From assembly GCA_946186575.1 (NCBI GenBank), contig CAMHNO010000005.1, positions 1 to 64,000 of the forward strand: a DNA stretch of 64,000 nt, written 5' to 3'. The position numbers were made by a program, and so were the translations under genes. Numbering within the stretch: the stretch's first letter is position 1; each line of letters begins with the position of its first letter. The notes below the pieces were generated by a model. The model searched no databases and had not been told where the DNA came from. It saw only the letters and a program-made list of their open reading frames with translations. Origin of the DNA: an uncultured Prevotellaceae bacterium. Lineage in GTDB: Bacteria; Bacteroidota; Bacteroidia; Bacteroidales; Muribaculaceae. Below, one piece after another: positions 8,458 to 30,128 of this stretch.

Positions 8458-8483
8458 CTGAACGCGGCAAAGCCGCGCACTAC
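8458..8483 (-). repeat. REP-like element A1
   Basis: Minus strand: GTAG, then TG, then the hairpin CGCGGC-TTT-GCCGCG, then TTCAG. It differs at one base from the copy at 28791-28816. It lies about 230 bp upstream of the RAYT transposase gene and in inverted orientation to element B1 (8650-8675). Confidence 0.65.
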
Positions 8484-8515
8484 TGCAACGCCACAACATG
8501 CCGACTGCCACCACC

Positions 8516-8560
8516 ACTGCCACCACTGCTACTGCCACCACTGCTACTGCCACCACTGCT
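8516..8560 (+). repeat. 15-bp minisatellite between the two REP-like elements
   Basis: Three perfect tandem copies of ACTGCCACCACTGCT (8516-8530, 8531-8545, 8546-8560), with degenerate CCACC/CTGC copies on both sides. The following 8592-8650 stretch is rich in the complementary GGTGG/GTGGC words, so the whole spacer could fold back. No gene is supported in 8331-8710. Confidence 0.75.
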
Positions 8561-8649
8561 ATCACCACTTCAACTGCTGCCGCTATCGCTGCTGGTGGGT
8601 GGTAGTGGCTGTCGCTGTTGCGGTGGCTTGGAGTGGGTGTTGTGTTGGT

Positions 8650-8675
8650 GTAATGCGAGATTTATCTCGTTCATC
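8650..8675 (+). repeat. REP-like element B1
   Basis: Plus strand: GTAA, then TG, then the hairpin CGAGAT-TT-ATCTCG, then TTCAT. It has the same plan as A1, A2 and B2, and ends about 35 bp before the RAYT start codon. Confidence 0.6.
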
Positions 8676-8710
8676 GCTTGTCGTGCCGTTTTTTTTCTTA
8701 TTTTTGCACT

Positions 8711-9688
8711 ATGAATGACGACCGTGATAGAAAAAGACGCGAGTGGTGGCACAGGCAAAAGAATCGCCCTGCTTTCAAGCCTTCAAACCACCGCCGCAAG
8801 GCTGGTCACGACTATCGCAGCTGCTGCATCTACATGATCACGCTTGTGGTAATAGATCGCAAGCCCCTGCTTGGCACCCTGCGTGCGAGCGACTGCAACC
8901 ATTCTGAGCCGTGGGTGGAATTCAGCACCATCGGTCATGAGATACTCAAGCTGTGGCACAAGGTGCCTGACTACTACCCCGAGCTCAAGATGCTCAGGTT
9001 GTGCATCATGCCCGACCACATTCACGGCATCCTACATGTGACACAGCCCCTTAGCTGTCATCTGGGCAATGTGATTAACGGTTTTAAAAAAGGATGTAAC
9101 GACTTAACGCGAGAATCGAAGGGCCAAATGTTGTGGGAAGCTGGCTATCACGACCGCATCCTCAGCGGCAAAGGGCAACTCGATGCCATGTTCAAATACA
9201 TCGCCGACAACCCCCGCCGGTTGTGGACAAAACGCAACCACCCAGAGTTCTTCACTGTGCATCGCGACATTACAATGGGCAAGCGACAACTCTCGGTTGC
9301 CGGCAACACCTTCTTGCTCGGCTACCCCCTTAAGGTTGCTGTCATCTGTTCTCGCAGCATGAGCGACGAAGACATAGAAAAAGCAATTATTAAACATCTT
9401 GCGCTGGCGCAACGCGGTTATGTTCTGGTGTCGGCATGCATCAGTCCTGGCGAGAAACGGATTATGAGGGCCACTTTTGATGCTGGCTTCAAGCAAATTA
9501 TCCTGCTTGAAAATGGTTTTTCTGCAATGTGGAAACCCAACGGGGCACAATTTGACGCTTGTGCCAGTGGGCAAGTGCTCTTTGTCGCTCCATGGCAGCA
9601 TCACAATGAGCACAAATCCATCACCCGCGAGCAATGTCTTGAGCTGAACGCCATATCGCAGGACATTGCGACTATGATCACGCTCTAA
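8711..9688 (+). CDS. REP-associated tyrosine transposase (RAYT, Y1/HUH) with C-terminal DprA/LOG-like domain
   Basis: 325 residues from ATG 8711; an in-frame ATG at 8678 would start inside the REP/promoter region. Residues about 36-185 form a Y1 (TnpA-REP) domain. HIH at 103-105 (context MPDHIHGIL) is the metal-binding HUH motif, and Tyr146 (LWEAGYHDRI) is the likely nucleophile. WHKVPDYYP and YIADNPRRLW are typical RAYT signatures. Residues about 200-325 (YPLKVAVICSRS, RGYVLVSACISPGEK, IILLENGF, APW) read as a Rossmann domain of the DprA/LOG type. RAYTs process REP hairpins, and REP-like elements lie just upstream. There are no flanking inverted repeats of an insertion sequence, so this is probably a domesticated single-copy gene. 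The fusion is inferred by eye. Confidence 0.8.
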   Translation: MNDDRDRKRREWWHRQKNRPAFKPSNHRRKAGHDYRSCCIYMITLVVIDRKPLLGTLRASDCNHSEPWVEFSTIGHEILKLWHKVPDYYPELKMLRLCIMPDHIHGILHVTQPLSCHLGNVINGFKKGCNDLTRESKGQMLWEAGYHDRILSGKGQLDAMFKYIADNPRRLWTKRNHPEFFTVHRDITMGKRQLSVAGNTFLLGYPLKVAVICSRSMSDEDIEKAIIKHLALAQRGYVLVSACISPGEKRIMRATFDAGFKQIILLENGFSAMWKPNGAQFDACASGQVLFVAPWQHHNEHKSITREQCLELNAISQDIATMITL

Positions 9689-9722
9689 TAGGCATCTCTC
9701 ACCTCATTAGCTATTATTTTTA

Positions 9723-9753
9723 TTGCAACAGTCAAGAAAACTCACTACCTTTG
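9723..9753 (+). promoter_or_regulatory. Promoter of the first NUC1 nuclease gene
   Basis: TTG at 9723-9725, a 20-nt spacer, then TACCTTTG at 9746-9753. It overlaps an in-frame start codon at 9751, which is why the ATG at 9781 is chosen as the translation start. Confidence 0.7.
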
Positions 9754-9780
9754 TGCTTTAGTTTTAAAAATCATCAATTT

Positions 9781-10650
9781 ATGATAAGTAAGAGTCAATC
9801 TTTACAATGGCTTAAGTGGGGAGCATGGGTTGTAGCCGTTGCCGCTATTGTCTATTTCTTGAATAAAAACGACGGCAGCCAAAAGCAAACCACGGCCCAG
9901 ATAGAACAATCTCAAAACTTAGCTGCCACTGAGCAAAACACAAGTCAAACTCCAGCGCAGGGCTATAACTATGAGACGGTGCTCATGCCACGCGGCCTAA
10001 GCGACAGAGTGGTGAAATACAAAGGCTTTACCGCCCACTTCAATAAGCAACTGCACATTCCCAACTGTGTAACCTACGAAATCACAGTGACCGAGGCCAA
10101 GGGGAAACGAGAACGCAGTGGCAATTTTGAGCGAGATGAGAGCGTGGATGGCTGCCCCAACTGGTGGGACTATCGCGACTCAGGATATGACCGTGGACAC
10201 ATGGCACCGGCGGGTGACATGAAATGGGATGAGAAAGCCATGAACGAAACGTTCTTTCTCACTAACGTCTGCCCGCAAGACCCAGCTCTCAACGCCGGTG
10301 TGTGGAACGACATTGAGATGAAGGTGAGGGAGTGGGCTCGCCGCGACAAGTCGCTGATTGTAATCACCGGGCCCATTGTGGGCAACAACCCTAAAACCAT
10401 TGGAAAGAACATGGACATTGCTGTGCCCGAAGCTTTCTTCAAGGTGATTATCTCGCCTAACACCACACCCATCAAAGCCATCGCCTTCATCTGCCCCAAC
10501 AGGGCATGCGGGGGAATGCTCAAGAACTATACCGTGAGTGTCGACGAGGTGGAGAAGCGCACAGGCATGAACTTCTTCAATGCGCTGCCCGATGATTTAG
10601 AAAACAGGGTCGAGGCCACCTGCAACTTGAACCAGTGGCTCAACTGGTAG
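9781..10650 (+). CDS. DNA/RNA non-specific endonuclease (NUC1 family), membrane-anchored
   Basis: 289 residues. An N-terminal hydrophobic segment (residues about 9-28, LKWGAWVVAVAAIVYFL) without a clear cleavage site suggests a signal anchor that places the nuclease outside the inner membrane. The NUC1 core shows the catalytic DRGHMAP motif (YDRGHMAPAGDM) and the metal-site region FFLTNVCPQDPALNAGVWNDIE. The family cleaves DNA and RNA without sequence preference using a single Mg2+ ion. A second, clearly related gene follows directly (10720-11577), so this is a tandem duplication. Likely roles are nutrient or nucleic-acid scavenging or defence against extracellular DNA (inference). Confidence 0.9.
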   Translation: MISKSQSLQWLKWGAWVVAVAAIVYFLNKNDGSQKQTTAQIEQSQNLAATEQNTSQTPAQGYNYETVLMPRGLSDRVVKYKGFTAHFNKQLHIPNCVTYEITVTEAKGKRERSGNFERDESVDGCPNWWDYRDSGYDRGHMAPAGDMKWDEKAMNETFFLTNVCPQDPALNAGVWNDIEMKVREWARRDKSLIVITGPIVGNNPKTIGKNMDIAVPEAFFKVIISPNTTPIKAIAFICPNRACGGMLKNYTVSVDEVEKRTGMNFFNALPDDLENRVEATCNLNQWLNW

Positions 10651-10719
10651 ATTAATACCAAGTTCTTTTTTTGGCACACTTTTTGTTATTACAGCTCGTT
10701 GAATATTGTTTATTAATTA

Positions 10720-11577
10720 ATGATTGCTGAAATGATGAAAAAGTTAGGAAAATTCGGACTCACATGCATGGTGGCCATTGCCGCTGTCATAATTATCTCG
10801 TTTTGTGTAGATGCCAAGCACAAGAGAAACAAAGGCAACACACGTCGCGTGGAGCAGGTTAAAAGCAGTGGTCAAGTCGAGTCATCGAACCTTACCGAGG
10901 TGAGAGTGAATTCACGATACCGCAACGTGAAAAAACAATACGAAGCAATGACAGTGAACTTCAACACTGCCTATCGGGTGCCAAACTGCGTGAGCTATGT
11001 GCTCACAAGCAAGATGATTGACATCACCAATGGGCCCAATGCCGAGCACCGTCGCAACTACAAGTTCTATGCCGACCCATCGGTGAGCGGTTGCCCTGAG
11101 TGGTATGAGTATAAGGGCAGTGGATATGACCGCGGCCACATGGCGCCTGCCAACGACATGCGCTGGAGCCGCCAGTCGATGAGCGACTGCTTCTTGATGA
11201 CCAACATCTGCCCCCAAGATCACGACCTGAATGGTGGCAGCTGGAACAAACTGGAGCTCAAAGTTCACGACTGGGCCAAACGCTACGGAAAGATTATTGT
11301 GGCAACTGGACCCATATTTAATGGTTCTCTTAACCGAATAGGCAAGAATCACGACATCGTGGTGCCATCGGGGTTCTTCAAGGTGGTGCTCGACCCAGCG
11401 CGCAGTTGCGCCATTGGGTTCGTCTACGACAATCACGAGGGAGGTGGTGGAGTGCAGCGTCACGCCTGCAGCGTCGACGAGGTGGAGCGCATCACAGGTC
11501 ACGACTTCTTCAGTGCTCTACCCGCCAATGTGGAGCGACAGGTTGAGAGCTCCTTCAGCTTCAACCAGTGGAACTAA
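10720..11577 (+). CDS. DNA/RNA non-specific endonuclease (NUC1 family), second copy
   Basis: 285 residues from ATG 10720; an ATG at 10732 is an alternative. A hydrophobic N-terminal segment (about residues 11-28, LTCMVAIAAVIIISFCV) is followed by a basic linker, then the NUC1 domain with YDRGHMAPANDM and FLMTNICPQDHDLNGGSWNKLE. All recognisable active-site positions match the upstream paralogue, so both are probably active. Divergence is substantial outside the motifs, pointing to an old duplication. It lies 69 bp after its paralogue and 66 bp before mnmE; whether mnmE is cotranscribed is unclear. Confidence 0.9.
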   Translation: MIAEMMKKLGKFGLTCMVAIAAVIIISFCVDAKHKRNKGNTRRVEQVKSSGQVESSNLTEVRVNSRYRNVKKQYEAMTVNFNTAYRVPNCVSYVLTSKMIDITNGPNAEHRRNYKFYADPSVSGCPEWYEYKGSGYDRGHMAPANDMRWSRQSMSDCFLMTNICPQDHDLNGGSWNKLELKVHDWAKRYGKIIVATGPIFNGSLNRIGKNHDIVVPSGFFKVVLDPARSCAIGFVYDNHEGGGGVQRHACSVDEVERITGHDFFSALPANVERQVESSFSFNQWN

Positions 11578-11580
11578 ATT

Positions 11581-11637
11581 AATGCACAATGCACAATGCA
11601 CAATGCTCAATGCATCCACTTAACACTTAACACTTAA
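11581..11637 (+). repeat. Intergenic heptamer arrays
   Basis: Five consecutive 7-bp units AATGCAC, AATGCAC, AATGCAC, AATGCTC, AATGCAT (11581-11615), one extra base, then three perfect units CACTTAA (11617-11637). The arrays fill nearly the whole gap between the second nuclease and mnmE and end six bases before the mnmE ATG. No ribosome-binding site or promoter is obvious. Confidence 0.85.
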
Positions 11638-11643
11638 TGATAA

Positions 11644-13020
11644 ATGGACACAATTTGCGCAGTTTCAACACCTCACGGCATGGGGGGAATAGCAGTAATC
11701 AGGGTGAGCGGCGACAACGCGCTCGACGCGGTGCAACGGCGATGGCGAGGAAAGCCACTGAGCCAGATGTCAAGCCACACCGCCCACTTAGGTCACATCA
11801 TCGACTCACACGGCGACCTACTTGACGAGGCAGTGCTCACCGTGTTCCGTGCCCCTAACTCGTTCACGGGCGAGGATGTTGTGGAACTGTCGTGCCACGG
11901 CTCAATGTGGATTCAGCAGCAAGTGGTGGCCACCCTGATTGATGCCGGATGCCGCGCCGCAACAGGTGGCGAGTTCACACAGCGAGCATTTGCCAATGGC
12001 AAAATCGACCTCTCGCAGGCCGAGGCTATTGCCGACGTGATTGCCTCGCAGTCGCGAGCATCGCACCATGTGGCGATGAACCAGATGCGAGGCGCCTTCA
12101 GCCGCAAGCTCAGTGCCTTGCGCTCGCAACTGTTGCAGTTTGTGTCGCTAATTGAACTGGAGCTCGACTTCAGCGAAGAGGACGTGACATTTGCCGACCG
12201 TTCACGACTCACTACTTTGGCAACTAACATAAAAAGCGTGATTGACTCGCTTGCAGCATCTTACCACGACGGAAATGCCATCAGGAACGGTCTGCCAGTA
12301 GCAATTGTTGGACCCACCAACGCCGGCAAGTCCACTCTGCTCAATGCCCTCCTGGGCGACGAACGGGCACTGGTGAGCGACATCAAAGGCACCACTCGCG
12401 ATGTGATTGAAGACACTATTGTGATGGGAGGGACACTGATTAGATTTATCGACACGGCAGGCATCCGCGAGTCGCAGGATGTCATTGAAAGCATGGGAAT
12501 AGAGCGCTCTTTCAAGAAGATGGACGAGGCACGCATTGTGCTGTGGATGATCGATGCCACAGCTCCAGCGATGGAACTCGATGAGTTCTATTCTCAAGTT
12601 CACGACCACTGCCGCGACAAGGCAGTGATTGCCGTGGTCAACAAGATCGACGCGTCCACGGCTCAGCCTGCCATCGACCGGCTAAACACGCTAAGCTTCA
12701 ATGGGAAAATAGTAAAAATCTCCGCCCGCGAGAGCACAGGCGTTGACCAACTCAAGCAAGAGATTATAGCACAGGCTGCGTTGCCTGGGGTGAGCGATGA
12801 GAATGCCGTCATAGTCACCAACTCACGCCACTATCATGCCCTTGTGCGAGCTGGCCAGGCAATCGACCGCACCCTGCAGGGCCTTGAGAGTAACCTTAGT
12901 GGTGATCTCCTGAGCCAGGACATACGCGAGTGCATGCACTACTTGGGCGAAATCACTGGTGAAATCTCCACCGATGATATTTTAGGAGAAATCTTCGCCC
13001 ACTTCTGCATCGGCAAGTGA
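11644..13020 (+). CDS. mnmE: tRNA uridine-5-carboxymethylaminomethyl modification GTPase MnmE
   Basis: 458 residues, normal family length. With MnmG it modifies the wobble uridine of certain tRNAs, using a folate cofactor and GTP. The N-terminal folate-binding part has TICAVSTPHGMGGIAVIRVSG, and FTGEDVVELSCHG is conserved. The G domain starts at about residue 220 with the P-loop GPTNAGKST (223-231), followed by DIKGTTRD, DTAGIRES and NKID. The C-terminus ends CIGK, the conserved Cys-containing tail. Start ATG 11644 gives the expected MDTI... beginning. The gene converges on the minus-strand cluster starting with the esterase. Confidence 0.97.
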   Translation: MDTICAVSTPHGMGGIAVIRVSGDNALDAVQRRWRGKPLSQMSSHTAHLGHIIDSHGDLLDEAVLTVFRAPNSFTGEDVVELSCHGSMWIQQQVVATLIDAGCRAATGGEFTQRAFANGKIDLSQAEAIADVIASQSRASHHVAMNQMRGAFSRKLSALRSQLLQFVSLIELELDFSEEDVTFADRSRLTTLATNIKSVIDSLAASYHDGNAIRNGLPVAIVGPTNAGKSTLLNALLGDERALVSDIKGTTRDVIEDTIVMGGTLIRFIDTAGIRESQDVIESMGIERSFKKMDEARIVLWMIDATAPAMELDEFYSQVHDHCRDKAVIAVVNKIDASTAQPAIDRLNTLSFNGKIVKISARESTGVDQLKQEIIAQAALPGVSDENAVIVTNSRHYHALVRAGQAIDRTLQGLESNLSGDLLSQDIRECMHYLGEITGEISTDDILGEIFAHFCIGK

Positions 13021-13121
13021 ATTGAGCAAAGAATATTACTTTCTTAATTTTATTTTTAGCGTTTATAATTTACAATTCAATCACTTGTGGCTCCACATCG
13101 GTGTCGTGATTATTGAGTTTG

Positions 13122-13811
13122 TCAACGCACATCGACCTGCTTCAAGCACCACAAGAATCCCTTGGCTGTGCGCAAAGCATTGTCGGCAAAGTGGTTGCCG
13201 GGGTTCCACTCAAGCATGCAATGGCTTGAACCAAGCTGTTGTTGCAACAGCTCATGCTCAAAGCGGATGTTGGCACCCACCCTTGCAAAAGCCTTGTTAC
13301 GGGTGCGCTCCTCACGGTCGCCCAGGCTCAGATAGACGCTGGCAGCACCCACAGGATGCCGCAAAGCAAAGTCGCACCAACCACCAATCCACACCGAGGG
13401 CGACACTGCCGCCACAGCGCTGAAGACGGTCGACTCTTTAGAGGCCCACAACGCGAACAGTCCAGCCAGTGAATAGCCGCCAAGCACAATGGGCAACTGG
13501 CCATAATCAGCCACAAGCGCGGGTATCAGCTCACTGGTTACATAGCGAAGCGTTTCGGTGGCGTGCTCGCCCACTGCCGGGTTGCGCGACACTGCCGCAT
13601 CGTGCCATGGAGTGAGCTCAAGCTCCCAATTAGTGACTGTGAATGCCACCATCACCAATTCAGTGTCAGCACCTTGTGCAACAATCGCCATCTCGCTGTC
13701 GATGCTATCCTGCTCATGCACCCCTAACGGCTGAATGAGAAGCACACGAGGCACCTCTCCCACTTGATAAATCAAGCACTCACGGTTTCCTATTTTTCGG
13801 TTTTGTTTCAT
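13122..13811 (-). CDS. Alpha/beta hydrolase, putative esterase
   Basis: 229 residues without a signal peptide, so probably cytoplasmic. The nucleophile elbow is GGYSLAG (Ser114), and GNHF near residue 207 supplies the likely catalytic His. AAVSPSVWIGGW resembles the esterase D / Fes-type PF00756 fold. The acid residue is probably in YLSLGDREE. It is the distal gene of a set with the YdeI-like protein (2-bp gap), suggesting cotranscription. Substrate unknown. Confidence 0.75.
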   Translation of the reverse strand: MKQNRKIGNRECLIYQVGEVPRVLLIQPLGVHEQDSIDSEMAIVAQGADTELVMVAFTVTNWELELTPWHDAAVSRNPAVGEHATETLRYVTSELIPALVADYGQLPIVLGGYSLAGLFALWASKESTVFSAVAAVSPSVWIGGWCDFALRHPVGAASVYLSLGDREERTRNKAFARVGANIRFEHELLQQQLGSSHCMLEWNPGNHFADNALRTAKGFLWCLKQVDVR

Positions 13812-13813
13812 GA

Positions 13814-14167
13814 TTAGTCATTGTTAGCCATTGCTTGTTCAAGAGCGGCACGGCCTGCTGCTCTCATCAAGCCGCGCAGCTCCAGGTCGCGGCATCGCTG
13901 CATGTTGAGTTCGGTCCAGTGACTGCCCTTGCGGCGCGGCGAGAGCCGTTGAGCCAAGCGTCCATCGGGCATTTTTTTGCACGTTGAGTCAATCCAACCG
14001 AAGCACAACGCCTCTTCCACAATATCAACATATTGCAGTGCCACCCAGGGCGGCTGTTTCTTGCGATAGGAAACCACCCAGCACTCCTTCTCGCAGGCAT
14101 GCTTCTCTATGAGCCACTGCCGCAGTTCACTTCGCTCTTTAAATGTCAACAAGTTAGTCACTTCCAT
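13814..14167 (-). CDS. YdeI/OmpD-associated family protein
   Basis: 117 residues. The family signature is seen in LRQWLIEKHACEKECWVVSYRKK, EALCFGWIDSTCKK and RLSPRRKGSHWTELN. YdeI-type proteins are small, widespread and poorly understood; some are linked to bacteriocin protection. This copy ends soon after the core helix and lacks the C-terminal extension present in longer homologues. It lies between the MmcQ/YjbR gene and the esterase with gaps of 11 and 2 bp, so the three probably form one transcript. Confidence 0.8.
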   Translation of the reverse strand: MEVTNLLTFKERSELRQWLIEKHACEKECWVVSYRKKQPPWVALQYVDIVEEALCFGWIDSTCKKMPDGRLAQRLSPRRKGSHWTELNMQRCRDLELRGLMRAAGRAALEQAMANND

Positions 14168-14178
14168 GTGGCCACATA

Positions 14179-14532
14179 TTATTTCTTGCTCGATGACTTA
14201 TTGTTCTTCACCAAGTCATAAGAGTTACGCACCAACTCAAGGAGCTTGCAGTCGTCAACATCGTGGTTCACCTCAACGCTCATCCAGTAACGCTTGTCGC
14301 CGTTGAAAGGCTCGCCCACAGCTTGATACTGCTCTTTGAGCTCGGCCATGAGGCTGGGTTCGCACTTGATGGTCACAGCCTTGAAGTCATCGATATTGAA
14401 GTAGCAGAACATGTGTCCTGCCACATAGAACACAAGGATGGTGTAACGCCCCCTCGTGAATTTCTCAAATGGGGTGGCCTCGGTCACACCTGGCAGCGAG
14501 AGACAGTATTCACGAAACTCTTCTATGTTCAT
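14179..14532 (-). CDS. MmcQ/YjbR family protein (copy 1)
   Basis: 117 residues from ATG 14532; the upstream in-frame start at 14559 sits inside a terminator hairpin and is less likely. It begins MNIEEFREYCLSLPGVTEATPFE, the standard MmcQ/YjbR opening, and contains the conserved KCEPSLMAELKEQY and WMSVEV. The fold is a double-wing DNA-binding-like (CyaY-like) domain; the cellular role is unknown. The end is Ser/Lys-rich. A second, more divergent family member lies at 20881-21231. Confidence 0.85.
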   Translation of the reverse strand: MNIEEFREYCLSLPGVTEATPFEKFTRGRYTILVFYVAGHMFCYFNIDDFKAVTIKCEPSLMAELKEQYQAVGEPFNGDKRYWMSVEVNHDVDDCKLLELVRNSYDLVKNNKSSSKK

Positions 14533-14543
14533 TATGCCATGAC

Positions 14544-14584
14544 GAAAAACTACCCCCACGATTATTAAATTCAGGTGGGGGCAG
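14544..14584 (-). terminator. Terminator of the flavoprotein gene
   Basis: Minus strand: GCCCCCAC and GTGGGGG pair around a 15-nt AT-rich loop, followed by TAGTTTTT. It separates the flavoprotein gene from the YjbR-YdeI-esterase set. Confidence 0.75.
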
Positions 14585-14594
14585 TAAAATGATG

Positions 14595-15110
14595 TTAGAA
14601 CTTGCTTACCAGGTCAATAATCTTGGCGCGAGTCTCGTCGGTCTTTTGCTCATCGTTCTTGGCAGTGACGATGCCGCAATCTTCAACGCTCCAGTAGTTG
14701 CAGATGTCGCGATACTCGGCAGTGGCACCAGTGTAGACGCCTGGCGAGTAGCTCGAAGTGAGCAATGCCATCTTCTTCACCTTGGCAGGGCTGTTAACGC
14801 AATACATGCGCTGGATGGGAGCCTGCAGCTGAGCGCACAGCGTAAAGTAATAGATAGGAGCGGCGAGCACCAATGCTTCGGCCTCGGCCATCAGTGGATA
14901 TAGCTCTTGCATGTCATCCTTCTGGATGCAGGCGCCGTTGCCCTTAGTGTGGCAATACTCACATGCGAGACAGCCGGCAATCTTCTTGCGAGCAACATTT
15001 ACCACAGTTACGTTGTGACCTGCAGCCTCGGCTGCCTTCTTGCATTCGTCGGCCATCCATGCAGTGTTGCCATTGGCACGCGGCGATGCTTGTAAAATAA
15101 GAATGTTCAT
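14595..15110 (-). CDS. Flavodoxin-like NAD(P)H-dependent FMN oxidoreductase
   Basis: 171 residues. It starts MNILILQASPRANGNTA, the FMN phosphate-binding loop of the NADPH-dependent FMN reductase / iron-sulfur flavoprotein group. The conserved GCLACEYCHTKG..C motif (Cys around 47-62) is typical of this group and may bind metal or be redox-active. APIYYFTLCAQLQAPIQR is the second FMN contact. Probable role: NAD(P)H-dependent reduction of quinones or similar compounds in the cytoplasm. It has its own terminator. Confidence 0.85.
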   Translation of the reverse strand: MNILILQASPRANGNTAWMADECKKAAEAAGHNVTVVNVARKKIAGCLACEYCHTKGNGACIQKDDMQELYPLMAEAEALVLAAPIYYFTLCAQLQAPIQRMYCVNSPAKVKKMALLTSSYSPGVYTGATAEYRDICNYWSVEDCGIVTAKNDEQKTDETRAKIIDLVSKF

Positions 15111-15177
15111 AGTTTTTTCCTTGGGTTTGTTGATTAGTTATTAATTGATTAGTTAGTTGTGAAAGGTATTGTGATTT

Positions 15178-15822
15178 TTAGAATCTTTTAGCCAGTGTGG
15201 TGATGTCGCACGGCGTGATGGCGTGCTTGTGGTAGCCGTCGCGAGTGAGGGTGAGTTGCGACAATGCCACCTCGCGCATGCTGTTGGCCTGTCCCAGCAA
15301 GCGTAGCAATGGGTAGAACACGATGAAGGCATATTGCATGGCTTGAATACGCTTTTGGCCTCGTGACCATCGCATGATGGCTGGTCGCAAAGCAAAGGTG
15401 CGCTTGTAGCCCATAGTTTGAATCTCGGCCTCGGTCTTGCTCTTTACCTGTTGCCAGTATTGCTTGCCGCTGGCCGATGTGCCGGCACCGCTCAAGTAGA
15501 TAAATGTCATGTTCTCCTTGGCGGGCATGATTGAGGCAAAGTGTAGCGGTATCTCCTGCGAGATGCGCAGGTAGGCGTCGCGCGGCGTGCCCACCGAGGT
15601 GATGCCGGCGATGAAGAACACGGCATCGTAGCCTTCAAAATGCTTATCGCCAGCCTCAAGCTTCATGAAGTCGTCGACTATATATTCCTCGAGCTTAGCA
15701 TGAGTGATGCCCGACGGCTTGCGGCTTACCGATAGCACCTTCTCTACCTGCTCAACCTTGAGTAACTCTAGAAGTGTGCCCTCGCCCACATATCCTGTTG
15801 CTCCAGTGATAATTATATTCAT
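15178..15822 (-). CDS. NAD(P)-binding atypical SDR family protein
   Basis: 214 residues. The Rossmann motif ITGATGYVGEG (residues 5-15) is at the N-terminus, and FIYLSGAGTSASGK resembles the catalytic-strand region of atypical SDRs (NmrA / HIM1-like). The YxxxK-type pair is not clearly present (YWQQVKSK is the nearest), so a sensor or unusual reductase is possible. It is preceded by a good promoter and lies 67 bp before the flavoprotein gene; a redox pairing is inferred only from position. Confidence 0.75.
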   Translation of the reverse strand: MNIIITGATGYVGEGTLLELLKVEQVEKVLSVSRKPSGITHAKLEEYIVDDFMKLEAGDKHFEGYDAVFFIAGITSVGTPRDAYLRISQEIPLHFASIMPAKENMTFIYLSGAGTSASGKQYWQQVKSKTEAEIQTMGYKRTFALRPAIMRWSRGQKRIQAMQYAFIVFYPLLRLLGQANSMREVALSQLTLTRDGYHKHAITPCDITTLAKRF

Positions 15823-15875
15823 GCTATAAAATTATAGAAAGTTGATTACTACCGTTTCGAGCAGACATTTGACTG

Positions 15876-22849: not shown

Positions 22850-22877
22850 CAAGCATCACCTCACCGTGCTTGCTTGT
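22848..22877. terminator. Hairpin overlapping two convergent gene ends
   Basis: AGCAAGCA (22848-22855) and TGCTTGCT (22867-22874) pair around an 11-nt loop and are followed by TGTTT on the plus strand. The stem includes the end of the methyltransferase gene and the last codons of the GH53 gene. T-runs are weak. Confidence 0.4.
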
Positions 22878-23869
22878 TTAAAAGCATCCATGATGGCTGT
22901 GGGACGATGGTTTTGGAAAGCCCCAAGTGGATATTGCCCTTCGGCCTCGGGAGCCCAGTAGAACACACCGGTGCAGTTGCCGTGAGTTTGATTGCGTGCA
23001 GCATCTATCAGTTTTGACATGAAGGCTTTTCCTGCCTCGGGTCGCCGAGCTTCATATCCGGTCTCGACTATCATCACCGGACAGCCGTACTCGGCGCTGA
23101 GCGCATTGATGTTCTCTATCACTCGCTCCAGAGTCTCGTCTTCACTCTTAGTAAGCCCAGCCTCCATGTCCCAATAGGGATAAACACTCACGCCCATCAT
23201 GTCCCATCGTGCCTTATATTTCTTGAGGCCATCAAAGACGATGTGGTAACGATTGATGTCGCATGCTGCATCAAGGTGCACAATGCAAGTGGCGTGAGGG
23301 TATACCTTCTTGGCTGCACGGTAGCCAGCTTGGGTGAGGCCGGCATACTGCTGCATGTTGTCGGGCACACGGCCCATAGGCCACAGGAAGCCGTTGGTGG
23401 TCTCGTTTCCAATCTGAATCCACTTCACGTCGATGCCACCAGCCTTTAGCAGCTTGAGCGTCTCGGTGGTGTGCATGGCCACTGCGCGCTTCATTGCCTC
23501 GTAATTGTAGTGCCGCCAGCGAGCAGGTATGTTCTGCTTGCCTGGGTCGGCCCACCAGTCGCTGTAGTGAAAGTCAATCATTATTGCCATCCCCTGAGCT
23601 TGCGCCCGTCGGGCCATAGCCAGCACGTCGTGCATGTCGCACTCTCCGTCGCGTGGGTTGACCCACACGCGCAGCCTTGCCGCATTAATTCCTAACTCAC
23701 GCATTAGCGTGATGTTGTCGCGTTCCTGCCCAGCATTGTTGTAAAGCTTCACTCCGCGACGCTCCAGCTCACTCGTGCCACTGATGTCGGCACCAAGCCA
23801 AAAGTTGGTCTGAGCCGCTACTCCCAGAACCAGTGTAGTTGCTATTAAAAAAAATGTTATTCTTTTCAT
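22856..23869 (-). CDS. Arabinogalactan endo-beta-1,4-galactanase (GH53)
   Basis: 337 residues from ATG 23869. Signal peptide MKRITFFLIATTLVLGVAAQ. The GH53 barrel shows FWLGADISGTSELE, RLRVWVNP, MIDFHYSDWWADPGKQ, the acid/base Glu156 in QIGNETTNG and the nucleophile Glu269 in VETGYE. It cleaves beta-1,4-galactan side chains of pectin, acting in the periplasm or at the outer membrane. No SusC/SusD or regulator lies nearby, so it is not in a classical polysaccharide utilisation locus here. No T9SS-type C-terminus. Confidence 0.93.
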   Translation of the reverse strand: MKRITFFLIATTLVLGVAAQTNFWLGADISGTSELERRGVKLYNNAGQERDNITLMRELGINAARLRVWVNPRDGECDMHDVLAMARRAQAQGMAIMIDFHYSDWWADPGKQNIPARWRHYNYEAMKRAVAMHTTETLKLLKAGGIDVKWIQIGNETTNGFLWPMGRVPDNMQQYAGLTQAGYRAAKKVYPHATCIVHLDAACDINRYHIVFDGLKKYKARWDMMGVSVYPYWDMEAGLTKSEDETLERVIENINALSAEYGCPVMIVETGYEARRPEAGKAFMSKLIDAARNQTHGNCTGVFYWAPEAEGQYPLGAFQNHRPTAIMDAFKQASTVR

Positions 23870-23890
23870 GACTATGCCTAAGTTTTGCGA

Positions 23891-23920
23891 CAAAGATACT
23901 TAGAAATAACAAAATAGCAA
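23891..23920 (-). promoter_or_regulatory. Promoter of the GH53 gene
   Basis: Minus strand: TTG (23920-23918), a 19-nt spacer, then TATCTTTG (23898-23891), about 20 nt before ATG 23869. Confidence 0.7.
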
Positions 23921-23978
23921 ATAATTTACCCCATAAGTTATTATTTGAGATGGACTATAGTAACTATATCAACTACAA

Positions 23979-24018
23979 AAAAGAAAGGTGTTCTACCAAG
24001 CAAAACAGAACACCTTTT
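23979..24018 (-). terminator. Terminator of the metacaspase operon
   Basis: Minus strand: AAAGGTGTTCT and AGAACACCTTT form an 11-bp stem with a 12-nt loop, followed by CTTTTTTG. It lies about 20 bp after the Sel1-repeat gene and before the GH53 promoter. Confidence 0.85.
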
Positions 24019-24039
24019 ATTATATTATAGATTACTGAC

Positions 24040-25956
24040 TCAGAATTCAGTTTTATCAAGCAAAGCCTTTATGGGGTCATAATCATCTGGAATCTCTCTC
24101 AGCTTCATTATGTGGTCATCAATGTTTTCGCATGGGAAAAGTGGTTTGATCTTCCCACTCTCATAGAGCTTAGCCAGCTCACTGGCCACACTTCTGTTGC
24201 CATCATAGAACGCCCATTGCTCCTCGGCCTGCTGATAATACTTTATCGCATCCTTGTTCTTTTTATCGTCCCTCAGCATGTTGCCATAGCGGCATTGCGC
24301 CAGTCCGTTACCAGCATTGGCAGCGGTTTTCATGAGATCCTTAGCTTGTTTTTCATCTTTCTTGACCACCTTGCCATCGGCATTCAGGTAAATCAATGCC
24401 AACTGGTAGCAAGCGGCATGATAGGCCTTTCTTGACTCTTTTTTGGTAGTAGGCACTCCATTTACCTCAATGGTTTTAACGTCATAGTAATCTTTAGTCA
24501 CTTGCTCGAGCAGAGAAATCGCTTGCTTGAATTCATTGCCCTTTGCGTAGCACATGGCCTCCATGGTCACGGCTTCGCCCACAGCGGTTTTCTTCAGTTC
24601 TTTGAAAATAGCAAACGCCTCTTTCATGTCATTATCATAATAGGCATTCATGCCTTTCAGGAACATAAAGAACGGGTCGTTTTGCTCCTTCAGCTCAGCA
24701 ACCAAGTTGTGATATTTATCCTTCAAAGAGTCGGTCTCGACAAGCGAAATCCAGTGAATGGCCTTGAAATAGTCTCGGTCTACCATGTAACTGGTTCGAT
24801 AGCAATTACCCAAAGTCCATCTTGCAAGGTCATCGCCTGCTGAGGCAGCATCTTCAATCCATTGCATAGCCTTCTTGCGAGTGTTGTCGTCCTTATCATA
24901 TAGGTATATTTCACCAAGCCTTACTTTGGCACCCACATGACCAAACTCTACAGCCTTACGGAAGTCGGCAATAGCCAGCAAAGTGTCTCGCTCCACCCCG
25001 TCGCCTTCATAGAGCATCACGCCGCGGTGATAGATGGCATCCACATTAGTGGAATCGCCCTTAATCACTTTATCAAAATACTGGAATGCCATCACTCGAT
25101 TCTCTCGAGAGTGCCCTTTTTCGTATAATCTGGTAGCAACCTTGAGCATGCTGTCTACATCGCCCAGCTCGGCAGCCCGCTTAGTGTACTCGTAGGCTTT
25201 TTTCTTATCGATACTCTCATTGCCCAGGCCCTTGTCATAAATCTCACTCAATAGCTTGAGGAAGAACACATCATCGCCGTCGGCAAGCAAGTTCAGCACC
25301 TCGAGCACCTGGTCGTCGCCTTTTTCTACTGCTTCAAGATATAAATCACGTGCTCTATCCACATCGGCTTTCACTCCATCGCCGTAGTAATAGCAAGTGG
25401 CAAGCATTACCGTGGCATGAGTATTACCCAGATTATGAGCTTTCTTAAACCAACTCGATGCCTCTTTATAGTCCATTTCCTCACCTTCGGCTGTGTAGTA
25501 GTACATGCCCAGCAGATAGGCGGCCTCAGCAGCTTCTTCGTCATTCCCATTTTTTGCCTTGTCCTTCAATATCTCGATTGAGTCGACTGGCTGCTCGGCC
25601 TTGATTCGCTCCGAAACAGTGCCTTGATTGTTATTAATCAAGTCTTGCAAGTTAGGAACCGTGTTACCGGAGCGTGGCTTAATCAAGTCGTTTTTTTTGC
25701 CATTGTTCAAGCCATTGAGCAACCCCTTAACTTTTGAAACATTGTCTTGCTGTTCTGGTTTAGCATCCTTATCACCATCTCTATCAGTGGCAGGCGGAAC
25801 AGCAGGTTTTGCCTTGCTCGGATTTGACCTTGATTGAGGCTTAGGCACTGTGGTCGAAGCGCCTCTATTCCTGCTACTGTGTTGGGCATTAACAGGAGTG
25901 AATCCTGCTATTAGCACTAAAGCCATCACTATGGTTAAAACATTGAATCGTTTCAT
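24040..25956 (-). CDS. Secreted Sel1/TPR-repeat protein
   Basis: 638 residues. Signal peptide (residues 1-24, ending VNAQ) and a Pro/Ser/Lys-rich, disordered-looking segment to about residue 110. From about residue 135 there are multiple Sel1-type repeats (AAYLLGMYYYTAEGEEMDYKEA, ATVMLATCYYYGDGVKADVDRA, AIYHRGVMLYEGDGVERD and others), then more TPR-like helices to the end. Such solenoids mediate protein-protein contacts, usually in the periplasm. It is last in a four-gene operon with metacaspase, acidic anchor protein and zinc-ribbon protein (38-bp gap), and might be the scaffold or substrate of that set (inference). Confidence 0.85.
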   Translation of the reverse strand: MKRFNVLTIVMALVLIAGFTPVNAQHSSRNRGASTTVPKPQSRSNPSKAKPAVPPATDRDGDKDAKPEQQDNVSKVKGLLNGLNNGKKNDLIKPRSGNTVPNLQDLINNNQGTVSERIKAEQPVDSIEILKDKAKNGNDEEAAEAAYLLGMYYYTAEGEEMDYKEASSWFKKAHNLGNTHATVMLATCYYYGDGVKADVDRARDLYLEAVEKGDDQVLEVLNLLADGDDVFFLKLLSEIYDKGLGNESIDKKKAYEYTKRAAELGDVDSMLKVATRLYEKGHSRENRVMAFQYFDKVIKGDSTNVDAIYHRGVMLYEGDGVERDTLLAIADFRKAVEFGHVGAKVRLGEIYLYDKDDNTRKKAMQWIEDAASAGDDLARWTLGNCYRTSYMVDRDYFKAIHWISLVETDSLKDKYHNLVAELKEQNDPFFMFLKGMNAYYDNDMKEAFAIFKELKKTAVGEAVTMEAMCYAKGNEFKQAISLLEQVTKDYYDVKTIEVNGVPTTKKESRKAYHAACYQLALIYLNADGKVVKKDEKQAKDLMKTAANAGNGLAQCRYGNMLRDDKKNKDAIKYYQQAEEQWAFYDGNRSVASELAKLYESGKIKPLFPCENIDDHIMKLREIPDDYDPIKALLDKTEF

Positions 25957-25994
25957 ATTATAATTTGATTAAAAAATAAATCTCTGACTTCTTT

Positions 25995-26423
25995 TTACTG
26001 ACGCTCTATTGCCGCTGGGTCAACAGCTTTGTAAAGAATCATTGTGGAGCAATCATTGCACTTGGCCGCAAGCACCTTGCCTGCAGTCTTTGGCAACAGG
26101 GTGATGTCGCTGCCGCAATCGGGACAGATAGCCCTATAGGGCCTGTAGACGACTGCCCTTTGCTTAATGACATATAGTTTTTCCCTCACTCTATCAGGTT
26201 GCCCGAGGACTGGCTCCACAACACGCGGACTCACAAACACATTTTTAGGGTCTTTCCTTTCACTTGCTGGTGGAGCGAACTTCAGTTTTATTCTTGCCTT
26301 GCAATGCGGGCACTCCAACGCATAGCTCCCATGCTTCGATGGCAAACTAACTCTGAATTGTCCCTGGCATGTGGCACATGAGAGCCTTAACTGAGTGTGA
26401 GTTTTATTATGTGTTTTATCCAT
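25995..26423 (-). CDS. Double zinc-ribbon protein
   Basis: 142 residues from ATG 26423. Two CxxC/CxxC pairs are visible: CATCQ..CPHCK in the N-terminal third and CPDCG..CNDCS in the C-terminal third, each typical of a zinc ribbon. The linker is basic and Pro-rich (KFAPPASERKDPKN). No signal peptide, so cytoplasmic. It lies 50 bp after the acidic membrane-protein gene and 38 bp before the Sel1 gene. The function of these ribbons (nucleic-acid or protein binding) cannot be told. Three of the four proteins of this operon look exported, so a cytoplasmic ribbon protein is unexpected. Confidence 0.75.
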   Translation of the reverse strand: MDKTHNKTHTQLRLSCATCQGQFRVSLPSKHGSYALECPHCKARIKLKFAPPASERKDPKNVFVSPRVVEPVLGQPDRVREKLYVIKQRAVVYRPYRAICPDCGSDITLLPKTAGKVLAAKCNDCSTMILYKAVDPAAIERQ

Positions 26424-26473
26424 AATCGTTGAATTACTAAGCAATGCATGAGTTGATGATTGTGCATTGAGTG

Positions 26474-27640
26474 CTACTGAGCAACAGGATCGATGGCAGC
26501 AAAGTCGGCGCCATTATCGCCCCCGCCAGCATCTATGCTGTGGCTGTCGAAGCTGTGCATGTCGAGTGCAGGGTCAACCTCGGGCACTGCCTCGATGGGT
26601 TCGGGCATCGCACTCTCGTGAACGTCGCTGTGCGAGGCATGATGGATATGGCTATCGTCTTGCACAACAACCTGGGCATGGTCGTCATTGTCGAGGGAGG
26701 CCTCTACGTTCTCATCAATTATTATAGCACCTTGAGCCTCGCTCACTACTTGAGCCTCGCCCAACACTTGAGCCTCGCTCACCACCTGAACATAGTTGTC
26801 GTTGATGTCGCCATCTTCGCCAAGCAGAGCCACCACTTGCTCGCTGTCCTCCACATCGAGCACTGCATCGATGTCGATCTCGTCGTTGTCGATGCCTGCC
26901 ACCATCACATTGGGGTGAGGAGTCTCGGAACCCATTGCCGCATTAGGACGGTCGACAACAGCAATAAGCTCACCGCCGTCGGTGTTGATGATGTCTTGCC
27001 TGATGTCGCTATTGACGGCATAATGCACATTAGAGTCGGGAGCGAGATATCCGCCATCGTCATGAAGCATCTCGTTAAAGTCGCCTGCTGTGTAGGCCGC
27101 TGCGGCAAACATGTCGTCGACCACCACACCAGTGGTTGGGTCCATATATAAATCATAGACTCCCGAGCCTGGCTCCGACTCGGCCATGGCCACTTCATGG
27201 CCATGAGAGTCCTGGAACACCATCACCCTAACATGATTGCCTTCGATATCGGTTATCTCCCTCCACCCCACTGGTGTGAGTTCCACACCGGTGTCGGAGT
27301 CGATCTGGTCGTTGTTGGTGAGCTCATCGAGCTGTTGCTTGCCCACGCCATTTGCCGTGCCACCACCGCCTATCACTCTCACCTTAGCATCACCAGTGTG
27401 TGCCACAGAGTGATCGGCTATCACGTCGCCTGCCTGGTCGTCGTCAATGTTGACAAGTGCAACAACGTCGTCAATTATCTCATCTACATTCTCGGCATTT
27501 AGCATCATGGCTCCTGCCGATGCACCCACCACAGTCACTACACCGGCACCTGCTCCTAAGGCCACAGTAGTTACATTGCTATCATTTTTCTTTTTATTGG
27601 CTTGACCCACTCGCGGTGTGGTCTTCTTCTGCTTCTTCAT
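26474..27640 (-). CDS. Acidic single-pass membrane protein of unknown function
   Basis: 388 residues. A strongly basic N-terminus (MKKQKKTTPRVGQANKKK) precedes one Gly/Ala/Val-rich membrane segment (residues about 23-47); the rest is very rich in Asp, Glu and Val, with His near the end. By the positive-inside rule the acidic part faces the periplasm. A central segment (TDIEGNHVRVMVFQDSHGHEVAMAE, VYDLYMDPTTGVVVDD) looks folded. A near-repeat of VVSEAQ / VLGEAQ / VVSEAQ lies around residue 285. No known domain recognised. The Asp-rich character might bind Ca2+ or offer caspase cleavage sites, but metacaspases normally prefer Arg/Lys. Second gene of the metacaspase operon. Confidence 0.75.
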   Translation of the reverse strand: MKKQKKTTPRVGQANKKKNDSNVTTVALGAGAGVVTVVGASAGAMMLNAENVDEIIDDVVALVNIDDDQAGDVIADHSVAHTGDAKVRVIGGGGTANGVGKQQLDELTNNDQIDSDTGVELTPVGWREITDIEGNHVRVMVFQDSHGHEVAMAESEPGSGVYDLYMDPTTGVVVDDMFAAAAYTAGDFNEMLHDDGGYLAPDSNVHYAVNSDIRQDIINTDGGELIAVVDRPNAAMGSETPHPNVMVAGIDNDEIDIDAVLDVEDSEQVVALLGEDGDINDNYVQVVSEAQVLGEAQVVSEAQGAIIIDENVEASLDNDDHAQVVVQDDSHIHHASHSDVHESAMPEPIEAVPEVDPALDMHSFDSHSIDAGGGDNGADFAAIDPVAQ

Positions 27641-27684
27641 AGTAGTTATTTTGTATTATGAGTTTCTGATTTCTGATTTCTGGC

Positions 27685-28458
27685 CTACCACTTGGCAAGC
27701 ACCACATTGTTGGCCCTTGAGGGGCAAATGAGCTGCGGATGCTGTACCATGCCACCCACCTCGCGACTGCCATTCATGCGACTCACCACCTCGCTGTAGA
27801 CATACTCATAGAGCTCAATCAGCGTCACACTGCGGTCTCTATTCTTGTCGGCCATGCCACGCAGCCCCTTGATTACCGCCTGCCCAAAGATTGAGTGCTT
27901 CCAGTGAGGCAAGTTCACGCTTTTGGAGGTTTCCTCGGGCCTTGACGAGACCATGAACGAGATGCCACTCTTCACCAAGTTGTTATGCCAGTTGGGGTCA
28001 CTGGTCAACCCTTGAGCCACCGTACCCGAGTGGCAAGCCATTATGAACACAAAGATGTTCTTGGTCTTACTCTTCGACAGAATGTCGATAATTTCCCTGT
28101 AAGTGATGTGTTCGCCGCCATAAGTGAGAATGTAGCCCTTCTCGGTTCCGTGAGTTGCGAAGTAAAGGAGGATGCGGTCGTCGGCACTCCTTGTGGCTGC
28201 TACAATTTTCTGAAGCCGGGTAAGGATATTGTCGCGGGTAGCATATTTATTGGTTACAACACTTGCCCGATAGCCTTGGTTCACGAGCACCTTTTTCAAG
28301 TCGATTGCATCGTTCTGCGCACTCATGATGTCTTCTGCATTAGGAGTGCCACACTTCGACAAGCCCATGCACAATGCAAAAGAATTGCCGGCCCAAGCCT
28401 GGGCACTGACAACAAAAATTGAAATCACAAGAAAAAGGATGGTAGCGATTTTTTTCAT
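27685..28458 (-). CDS. Secreted metacaspase (caspase family, C14)
   Basis: 257 residues. Signal peptide about residues 1-23 (ending AWAG). The p20-like fold shows the catalytic His103 (YFATHGTEKG) and Cys142 (FIMACHSGT), with SAQNDAIDLKKVLVNQGY upstream, a typical C14 opening. Later PHWKHSIFGQAVIKGLRG and DRSVTLIELYEYVYSEV continue the caspase core. Family members cut after Arg/Lys (metacaspases) or Asp. A secreted copy would act in the periplasm. It heads a four-gene operon with gaps of 44, 50 and 38 bp and has its own promoter. Confidence 0.88.
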   Translation of the reverse strand: MKKIATILFLVISIFVVSAQAWAGNSFALCMGLSKCGTPNAEDIMSAQNDAIDLKKVLVNQGYRASVVTNKYATRDNILTRLQKIVAATRSADDRILLYFATHGTEKGYILTYGGEHITYREIIDILSKSKTKNIFVFIMACHSGTVAQGLTSDPNWHNNLVKSGISFMVSSRPEETSKSVNLPHWKHSIFGQAVIKGLRGMADKNRDRSVTLIELYEYVYSEVVSRMNGSREVGGMVQHPQLICPSRANNVVLAKW

Positions 28459-28516
28459 GTTTATATAGTTTATTAAATTATCACGCCGTGCTCCTGGCGC
28501 TTTATCTATTGCAATG

Positions 28517-28548
28517 CAAAATTAACTATTTAGTACCCCTAATTGCAA
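28517..28548 (-). promoter_or_regulatory. Promoter of the metacaspase operon
   Basis: Minus strand: TTG (28548-28546), a 21-nt spacer, then TAATTTTG (28524-28517). Leader about 55 nt to ATG 28458. Apart from this, the REP-like element and the YARHG promoter, 28549-28857 holds no supported gene. Confidence 0.7.
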
Positions 28549-28740
28549 ATTTCAAACGACTTATTGTATCAAATCACTGCTTTTAATGACGAAATGCACC
28601 ACTTTGCACTGCATTATCTCGTGGATGTTCACACCACAAAGTTAATCATTTTTCTTCACAACTGCAGCACAACTGCACATAACAATAACAAAAAAAAACA
28701 AAAAAACGCAAAACATTTTCTTTCAACCACGGGCCACAGT

Positions 28741-28822
28741 GTGCTCTGGAAGCGGCTGTTGTGTTGCGTAGTGCGCAGCTGTTATGTTGCGTAGTGCGCG
28801 GCTATGCCGCGTTCAGGAGCAC
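28741..28822 (+). repeat. REP-like element A2 with a partial copy, framed by GTGCTC/GAGCAC
   Basis: The complete unit is 28791-28816: GTAG, TG, hairpin CGCGGC-TAT-GCCGCG, TTCAG. A partial unit (TTGCGTAGTGCGC, 28764-28776) precedes it and recurs 23 bp later (28787-28799). GTGCTC (28741-28746) and GAGCAC (28817-28822) bracket the 82-bp block as an inverted repeat. The complete unit differs from A1 by a single base. Confidence 0.7.
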
Positions 28823-28857
28823 AACACGCTCCGCCCCTGCAAATAATTGACTGGCAG

Positions 28858-28890
28858 TTTTGCTCGTTCCAGAAAAAAACACTATATTTG
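28858..28890 (+). promoter_or_regulatory. Promoter of the YARHG gene
   Basis: TTTTG (28858-28862), a 20-nt spacer, then TATATTTG (28883-28890); ATG at 28915. Confidence 0.75.
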
Positions 28891-28914
28891 CACTATTAAT
28901 AGAAAAGATTTGTT

Positions 28915-30042
28915 ATGAAAAAAAATATCTTCTTAACCATTCTCTCTCTAATGGCAATCACAATCAATGCCCAAGACCCGCACAACATGTTAGCATGCAA
29001 TCCCGAGAAGCTAATGAGCACCTTTGAGCAGGGAATAGCCACACACTTGGCTCATCGAAACGACAAGCGGCAAGTTCTCAACACCAAGCAGATGCTCACC
29101 AGCCTCACAGAGCAACTGTGGACCGATGGACGATTTGTCTTCTCCACATTCTACGACCCCGACAGGCGAGTGGTAGAAGCAGGCTTTAACCGCCACATGG
29201 AGCCCACGCCATGGATGGTCGAACCCCACGAGCTTAAGCTCGCCGGCAACAAGGCCAAAATGAAACAAAAGCCTGGACTCAGTGTCACTGTCGAGAAGCT
29301 GGGCCACTACACCATGCTTGTATATCGCAATGCCCAAGGTGCACCAGTCAGGGCCTACTACCATATCGACCTCGACAGCTCAAACGACGGCAGTTGGGTT
29401 ATATTCCTCCACTACATTCTTGCAGGCAACTACAAGCTAAAAAACGGCAATAATGCAGTGTTCGGCCCGTGGCAAGACTTCTATGATGGCGATTCCTTCA
29501 ACACCGACCCCGGCATTTACCAGATAATTCTCCACCCACAGGCGAGCACAATCGACATCATCTATGGCGATGGCCGTGTGAGCCATGGCGACCCAAGCAG
29601 TCCAAAATACGACAAGATGCCTGGCGGCGGAGGAGCAGGAGCCCTAATGGGTCCCATGGCATGGCAAGTGAAGCTCACAGGCGATGGACTCGAAGCCTGC
29701 GTCGCCCACGACGAGCCTTTTGTGGATCACCGCCCTCGGCTCGAAGAGGGAACCAATGTCCTTACCAAGGTGCAGTGCCCGTGGCAGGGGGTTGATGGCA
29801 AATGGGCTTTTGCCTCGGTCATACCATTGACTCACGAGCTGCTCAGGCTCTTTCCCAAGGATGTGCTCGAACTCATGCGCGCCGAGATTTATGCCCGCCA
29901 TGGCGACACCTTCAAGAGCGCAGCCAATCAGCAGTACTTCGACCAGCAGTCCTGGTACAAGAAAAAGGGCAAGGCAGTGGTGCTCACCGACATAGAGCGC
30001 TTCAACGTGGCCCTGATCAAATACATAATGAACAACCCATAA
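28915..30042 (+). CDS. Secreted YARHG-domain protein
   Basis: 375 residues. Signal peptide MKKNIFLTILSLMAITINAQ. The middle part (residues about 100-290) is unassigned, with DGDSFNTDPGIYQIILHP and a Gly-rich loop (MPGGGGAGALMGP). The C-terminal 85 residues form a YARHG domain (LMRAEIYARHGDTF...YFDQQSWYKKKG), found in extracellular and peptidoglycan-associated proteins of Bacteroidota and Firmicutes. Divergent from the metacaspase operon. Single gene; function unknown. Confidence 0.8.
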   Translation: MKKNIFLTILSLMAITINAQDPHNMLACNPEKLMSTFEQGIATHLAHRNDKRQVLNTKQMLTSLTEQLWTDGRFVFSTFYDPDRRVVEAGFNRHMEPTPWMVEPHELKLAGNKAKMKQKPGLSVTVEKLGHYTMLVYRNAQGAPVRAYYHIDLDSSNDGSWVIFLHYILAGNYKLKNGNNAVFGPWQDFYDGDSFNTDPGIYQIILHPQASTIDIIYGDGRVSHGDPSSPKYDKMPGGGGAGALMGPMAWQVKLTGDGLEACVAHDEPFVDHRPRLEEGTNVLTKVQCPWQGVDGKWAFASVIPLTHELLRLFPKDVLELMRAEIYARHGDTFKSAANQQYFDQQSWYKKKGKAVVLTDIERFNVALIKYIMNNP

Positions 30043-30065
30043 CTCACAACTCAAAGGGTTCAGTC

Positions 30066-30128
30066 TTGAGCGTCGGTCGTGTTAGTGTAGAGCGAGCTTT
30101 CAGCTCGTTCATCATCAGCGAGGCTCAA
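30066..30128 (+). repeat. REP-like element B2 inside a larger palindrome
   Basis: 30087-30112: GTAG, AG, hairpin CGAGCT-TTC-AGCTCG, TTCATC. TTGAGC (30066-30071) and GCTCAA (30123-30128) bracket it. It lies between the YARHG gene and ligA. Flanking gaps carry heptamer-like runs (ACCCATA ACTCACA ACTCAAA from 30036; ACTCATA ATTCACA ATCCATT just before ligA). Confidence 0.6.

Follow-up and report, generated by a model that had tools for sequence, protein, structure and literature searches.

A sparse family of REP-like hairpins and an adjacent RAYT with a predicted DprA-like domain in an uncultured Prevotellaceae genome

The stretch of DNA analyzed here (the window, 64 kb on contig C5 of a 2.7 Mb draft genome in 80 contigs, from an uncultured Prevotellaceae bacterium) contains a gene, P0001, for a putative REP-associated tyrosine transposase (RAYT) and four short hairpins, A1, B1, A2 and B2, that resemble repetitive extragenic palindromic (REP) sequences (Table 1). 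A first-pass annotation had described four such intergenic elements of 26 nt, and they were recovered at the same places and on the same strands. A hairpin-aware search of the window, for GTAR-NN followed by a perfect stem of 4-7 bp with a loop of 2-6 nt and then TTCA, returned these four and no others, against a mean of 0.08 (maximum 1) in 60 order-1 Markov random windows. All lie between main open reading frames (ORFs), in the gaps 8330/8711, 28458/28915 and 30042/30172, and a 111-aa alternative frame (29802-30137) overlaps B2. As the annotation had noticed, A1 and A2 differ by a single base, which lies in the loop, while B1 and B2 have other stems and retain the GTAR head and TTCA. A1 and B1, with heads facing 166 nt apart, form the sole inverted pair in the genome; dispersed inverted REP pairs (REPINs) were not found in it, its other copies being single or partial direct repeats. 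Rfam gave no match within the window at the gathering threshold.

Table 1. The RAYT gene and the hairpin elements of the window; bit scores refer to covariance model R1.
Feature	Coordinates	Strand	Core from head to TTCA	Remarks
RAYT gene P0001	8711..9688	plus		325 aa; Y1/HuH domain ~37-177, DprA-like domain (predicted) 182-322
A1 + leader	8456..8497	minus	GTAG-TG-CGCGGC[TTT]GCCGCG-TTCA, 8483-8459	head GTAG at 8483, stem CGCGGC; 50.9 bits, seed
B1 + leader	8636..8676	plus	GTAA-TG-CGAGA[TTTA]TCTCG-TTCA, 8650-8673	head GTAA at 8650, stem CGAGA; 54.6 bits, seed
A2 + leader	28778..28818	plus	core of A1 except for one loop base, 28791-28815	head GTAG at 28791; 49.2 bits, seed
B2 + leader	30073..30114	plus	GTAG-AG-CGAGC[TTTCA]GCTCG-TTCA, 30087-30111	head GTAG at 30087, stem CGAGC; 55.6 bits, seed
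Half-copy, truncated, directly 5' of A2	28755..28777	plus		18.7 bits, weak

Further copies were sought with R1, a covariance model whose eight seeds are the seven strong copies of this genome, including the four of the window, and one copy from the congener G118, so that the strong matches of this genome are themselves its seeds; in the genome searches with the model or the protein, a limited number of candidates per genome was scored (at most 150 for R1). This genome holds seven matches of at least 46 bits, all seeds and all between main ORFs, three of them outside the window; a match of 28.9 bits (C39:7325) is possibly one degenerate copy, and those below it are weak. A raw search of the genome for GTARNG..TTCA, which returned 177 matches as compared to 274 in the reversed control, proved useless alone. 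In the alignment of the eight seeds GTA, G-C and TTCA are invariant and leader positions are conserved, the conserved unit beginning ~11 nt 5' of GTAR. The repeat unit is thus ~36 nt long and consists of a leader (TGTYGTGTTNN), GTARNG, a hairpin of 5-6 bp and TTCA, which places it among short, intergenic, GTAG-tagged palindromes of REP size (20-40 bp). The same extent emerges from G118, where, in a set of 19 loci represented by one copy each, information content increases at -11 and drops after ~+24 to +27, giving TGTYGTGTT-NN-GTAGTG-hairpin-TTCA; outside the ~36 nt it is lower, with a few positions up to 0.6, partly from arrays. In that alignment, two of the 40 places were unanchored, and a half-unit served as the anchor for three (L175, L177 and L180). 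The 26-nt elements stand, but the true unit is longer, and the half-copy before A2 and the outer stems had been missed.

Compensating changes support the hairpin, three of five stem pairs being altered on both sides among the eight seeds and four of five among 33 G118 matches, the latter in an alignment itself fitted to the model. The stem types of this genome are CGCGGC (A1, A2), CGAGA (B1), CGAGC (B2, C6:57330, C9:46600) and CAAGC (C2:75572), with GTAA heads in B1 and C6:57330. An additional outer stem, spanning about 30066-30128 in B2, is present in B2, C6:57330 and C9:46600, whose whole segments fold as DNA with z scores of -4.2, -5.0 and -3.8, respectively. Half-units (head plus 5' stem), at 28742-28790 of the window and at L175 and L177 of G118, run directly into the leader of the next full unit, and the similarity of these junctions in two genomes may reflect the way in which copies originate.

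P0001 matches Pfam Y1_Tnp, and its AlphaFold2 model (predicted local distance difference test score, pLDDT, 92.5), compared with structures of the Protein Data Bank (PDB), has the fold of a RAYT. Among 57 homologues, H103 and H105 of the PDHIH motif are invariant, as are Y163 and N167, and P168 is conserved in at least 90%, in accordance with the HuH and Y---NP motifs of class 2 (PMC6006769). The second domain matches DprA-type structures over its length. P0001 scores 11.1 bits (E 0.22) against Pfam DNA_processg_A, under the cut-off of 29.6, and this profile matches three of the 57 family members at an E-value of at most 1; an hhalign comparison of the C-terminal domain with DprA proteins of the genus gave a weak match (Prob 3.5, E 0.012; reversed control Prob 1.3, E 0.04), and the assignment is carried by the structure comparison. 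On this predicted model, P0001 appears to be a RAYT fused to a domain resembling DprA. In contrast to DprA and the DprA-like ShosA (PDB 4ljk, 3uqz, 8zva), P0001 has this domain alone, fused to Y1, and shows SACISPGEK at the position of the SGLAyGID stretch in the alignment with DprA. PADLOC returned no match for three members of the RAYT family; in the open-licence PMC literature we found no paper on a transposase-DprA fusion, and no usable one on ShosA/DprA or on REPs with a transposase in Prevotella.

The elements are linked to the neighbouring RAYT in several ways. A1 and B1 lie beside P0001 and have copies elsewhere, in the manner of the GT[AG]G-headed hairpins that flank RAYTs. B1 begins 61 nt 5' of the RAYT start and is kept at the same place, with a GTAG head, before the 79% orthologue of G118, in which a counterpart of A1 with the same downstream flank stands at the start of another contig (C26:121). 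In G157 the 61% orthologue lies between two B-type elements, the hairpin of B1 recurring beside it, and has an A-type element downstream, and all three G157 matches of at least 33 bits are these neighbours of its RAYT, which bears out the suggestion of two stem subfamilies. Within 350 bp downstream of P0001 there is no GTAR..TTCA element. Across 30 other genomes of the genus, 10 of the 53 R1 matches of at least 20 bits lie within 300 bp of RAYT homologues, as compared to 0.07 expected; this test covered 76 matches down to 18.9 bits and 74 RAYT places after merging of pieces, leaving out the genome under study and one weak partial row (G152:C71). The tract between A1 and B1 (8490-8640) is a simple repeat of the CCACCACTGCC / TGGTGGCAGT type, and the G118 contigs with the B1 and A1 counterparts end near its position. 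A2 is adjoined by a Peptidase_C14 (caspase-like domain) gene on the minus strand (27685-28458).

The distribution of close copies largely follows that of the P0001-type RAYT. In a genus sample of 37 distinct genomes (sets of 31 and 10, with four in common), R1 matches of at least 33 bits occur in three, namely this genome (G000, seven), G118 (19, one of them a seed) and G157 (three), and these are exactly the genomes in which a homologue of P0001 reaches 60% identity (P0001 itself, 79% and 61%). The other 34 have no match of at least 33 bits, the best reaching 31.5 bits with a GTAT head (G155), and the congeners G098 and G143, without a match to the P0001 family, reach 18.5 and 16.6 bits. Close copies of the element are hence restricted, in this sample, to genomes with the P0001-type RAYT lineage, as the first-pass annotation had expected in proposing that the RAYT serves the family and in suggesting a comparison of relatives with and without it. 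That annotation had also taken only a few copies genome-wide as an argument to the contrary, and the seven clear copies found here lean that way, while G118 has 24 matches of at least 28 bits. Many of these have a CAAGC..GCTTG stem, the type of C2:75572 in this genome, and some form direct arrays; 26 of 33 matches in the fetched G118 stretches overlap no ORF of at least 100 aa. At one G118 locus (L179, C41:32300-36000), four minus-strand matches fall within one unbroken frame of 1233 codons.

The nearest named relatives of P0001 are found at nine loci in uncultured Prevotellaceae, Muribaculaceae or Bacteroidales assemblies, one of them from roe deer abomasum. Of 148 genomes of the family, 71 have matches to P0001, up to nine in one genome, some covering the Y1 half only, and stops interrupt several of the genes (L019, L021, L040, L048, L066, L070). 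This genome has four RAYT genes, 43-52% identical to each other, one of which is reported in two pieces because of an insert. Flanking hairpins recur at 32 of 80 RAYT genes, as compared to three of 80 control stretches, which are longer and lie at a distance. At 27 of these 32 loci GTR is found 5' of the stem in both copies, which ranks it first among 32 classes (the second reaching 17); GTR is present at the three control loci too, together with other classes. This recurrent-hairpin analysis replaced a first tetranucleotide enrichment over all hairpins, which was noise. GTAG or GTAA heads characterize the P0001 clade together with its sister RAYTs L117 and L137, and the other lineages show GTAT-TG, GTAC, GTGG-G or GTGC, so that the GTAG-type head claimed at the outset holds for the P0001 clade but not as a fixed rule. 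On the RAYT protein tree, head class changes 13 times over 35 thinned tips, as compared to 21.0 +- 1.4 (minimum 17) in 500 shuffles: hairpin heads follow the RAYT tree, and the GTRN head is lineage-typical. The tree is of the 'quick' kind, with four near-identical rows and then ten of the GTGG clade dropped, and includes L020, an apparently frameshifted gene that was read in a single frame without correction. Head labels were assigned by the recurrence rule, with those of L001, L018, L023, L032, L115, L117 and L136 set by hand and seven loci (L020, L022, L026, L137, L145-L147) added by hand; GTAA was merged into GTAG and GTGT into GTGC. All ten exact matches of the GTGG-type element in 31 genomes lie within 160 bp of a RAYT, and 24 further matches with one or two mismatches include several away from RAYTs. 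An in-frame hairpin with GTR nearby, a trinucleotide often expected by chance in such short flanks, lies between the HuH and W motifs in seven of 42 parsable RAYT genes. L011 of this genome (C4, 3863-4879) is among the RAYT genes with a hairpin inserted in frame between the HuH and W/Y motifs, and tandem CAAGC[TTTA]GCTTG hairpins with a period of ~53 bp stand directly 5' of a RAYT paralogue at ~4190-4440 of L009 (C55), in an array whose head is not clearly GTRN.

The comparison with known systems draws on PMC6006769, PMC8266576 and PMC3733652. The REPtrons of Proteobacteria (E. coli, Stenotrophomonas, Marinomonas; described in PMC8266576) share with the system reported here a Y1/HuH protein with Y---NP, adjacent GTAG-type hairpins and intergenic copies, whereas the DprA-like second domain, the conserved 11-nt leader, the few copies and the variation of heads as GTRN between paralogues are particular to the latter. 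The automatic REP search described in PMC6006769 used GT[AG]G heads. Among the TnpAY1 subclasses that this paper defines, 2.4 (Cyanobacteria, Bacteroidetes and others) resembles the present family in its occurrence in Bacteroidetes and in the REP-like hairpins that some of its genes contain in frame between HuH and Y, but Table 1 of that paper gives it a median of 194 aa, NH[IFV]H, WQ, YIxNNP and no C-terminal domain, as opposed to ~325 aa, DHIH, WE, YIADNP and the DprA-like domain in the P0001 family; W-Q is likewise what is described for 4er8-type proteins. Subclass 2.6, also of Bacteroidetes and with unusual flanking hairpins that have copies elsewhere, differs in its 179 aa, NH[LIV]H, WQ, YIH[QN]NP and absence of a GT[AG]G head. 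No subclass of that Table 1 combines DHIH, WE, YIxDNP, ~325 aa, REPs and Bacteroidetes.

We consider it probable (roughly 0.8) that A1, B1, A2 and B2 belong to a small REP family and that the adjacent RAYT is the cognate enzyme of this family. The grounds for this interpretation are the repeat unit, the covariation of the hairpin, the confinement of close copies to genomes that have the P0001-type lineage, the conservation beside orthologues, the lineage-typical heads and the two predicted folds. The analysis supports a sparse, low-copy REP/RAYT system with a lineage-typical head. Several observations weigh against it. P0001 scores 42.1 bits against the NCBIfam equivalog REP_Tyr_transpos, with a cut-off of 80, and because of this score it is RAYT-like by fold, motifs and neighbours without belonging to the equivalog. 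Seven clear copies are not the high copy number of typical REPs, and the segments of A1, B1 and A2 barely fold better than shuffles (z -1.4, -0.9 and -0.7). As many as 43 of the 53 R1 matches of at least 20 bits lie away from any RAYT found, and 48 of the 80 RAYT loci, which are not independent, about ten being one GTGG clade, have no recurrent hairpin. Two genomes without a RAYT match carry similar elements: G148 (89% complete) has a GTAGTG element of 29.6 bits (L099, C150:51368), which qualifies the contrast between relatives, and G163 has a one-mismatch match to the GTGG type. Finally, a head-dependent cleavage dinucleotide gave no clear signal, with one offset among 58 reaching z 3.7.

RAYTs act on lagging-strand hairpins, and DprA loads RecA. 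The RAYT might have been domesticated for a host task, for instance on hairpin single strands at stalled forks via the DprA-like domain, with the elements as regulatory or binding sites that spread as a by-product. The fusion itself, the low copy number, the element kept close before the start codon and the diverged, single rather than identical paralogues would all suit this scenario, which we nonetheless deem rather unlikely, given that the patchy occurrence of the family, the stops in several genes and the lineage-private element types suggest a selfish element rather than a core function. It is less plausible still that the hairpins form the termini of a TIRtron-like RAYT transposon in which gene and hairpins move as a unit, leaving solo hairpins as remnants. 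Many RAYTs do have elements on both sides, and exact GTGG-type elements occur only beside RAYTs, but both A1 and B1 are upstream of P0001 with none downstream, G118 combines its 24 matches with one close orthologue, and the divergence of the paralogues means that no recent gene transposition is seen. That the elements are ordinary intergenic hairpins (terminators or mRNA ends) sharing a motif by chance or convergent function, as their intergenic position and the poor folding of A1, B1 and A2 might suggest, is highly improbable in view of their common leader, head, stem and TTCA, their number over expectation, the sequence common to dispersed G118 copies, the clustering with RAYTs and the distribution in G118 and the genus.

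Returning to the REP/RAYT interpretation, the locus can be described as a REPtron because A- and B-type elements adjoin the gene. If P0001 works like the RAYTs studied so far, its Y1/HuH domain would bind hairpin and GTAR head as a folded single strand and would cut and rejoin it; binding, cleavage and mobility are inferred. New copies would thereby arise occasionally, mostly between genes, and the DprA-like domain may bind the exposed single strand and perhaps pass it to RecA or a partner.

What is new here is the second, DprA-like domain and the diversity of heads. In Marinomonas, changing GTAG to GTGG or GTAC shifts REP cleavage to other dinucleotides, according to PMC8266576, and the natural GTAT, GTAC, GTGG and GTGC lineages hence offer a direct test of this guide rule. 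One possible, if doubtful, scenario is that this RAYT clade captured a DprA-like single-strand-binding domain and its head code diversified, that each paralogue reads its own GTRN head, with a cleavage dinucleotide proper to each lineage by the Marinomonas rule, and that the cut strand then passes from the DprA-like domain to RecA or another partner; were it true, a single genome would harbour several hairpin systems insulated from one another. The P0001 clade bears on the unsettled question of how RAYTs spread REPs: a genome can have several of its paralogues, each paired with an element of its own, and natural changes of the fourth base in the guide-like tetranucleotide make the guide model of cleavage testable on natural pairs. 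If confirmed, the DprA-like fusion would point to a physical connection of the single strands handled by RAYTs with DNA processing of the DprA/RecA type.

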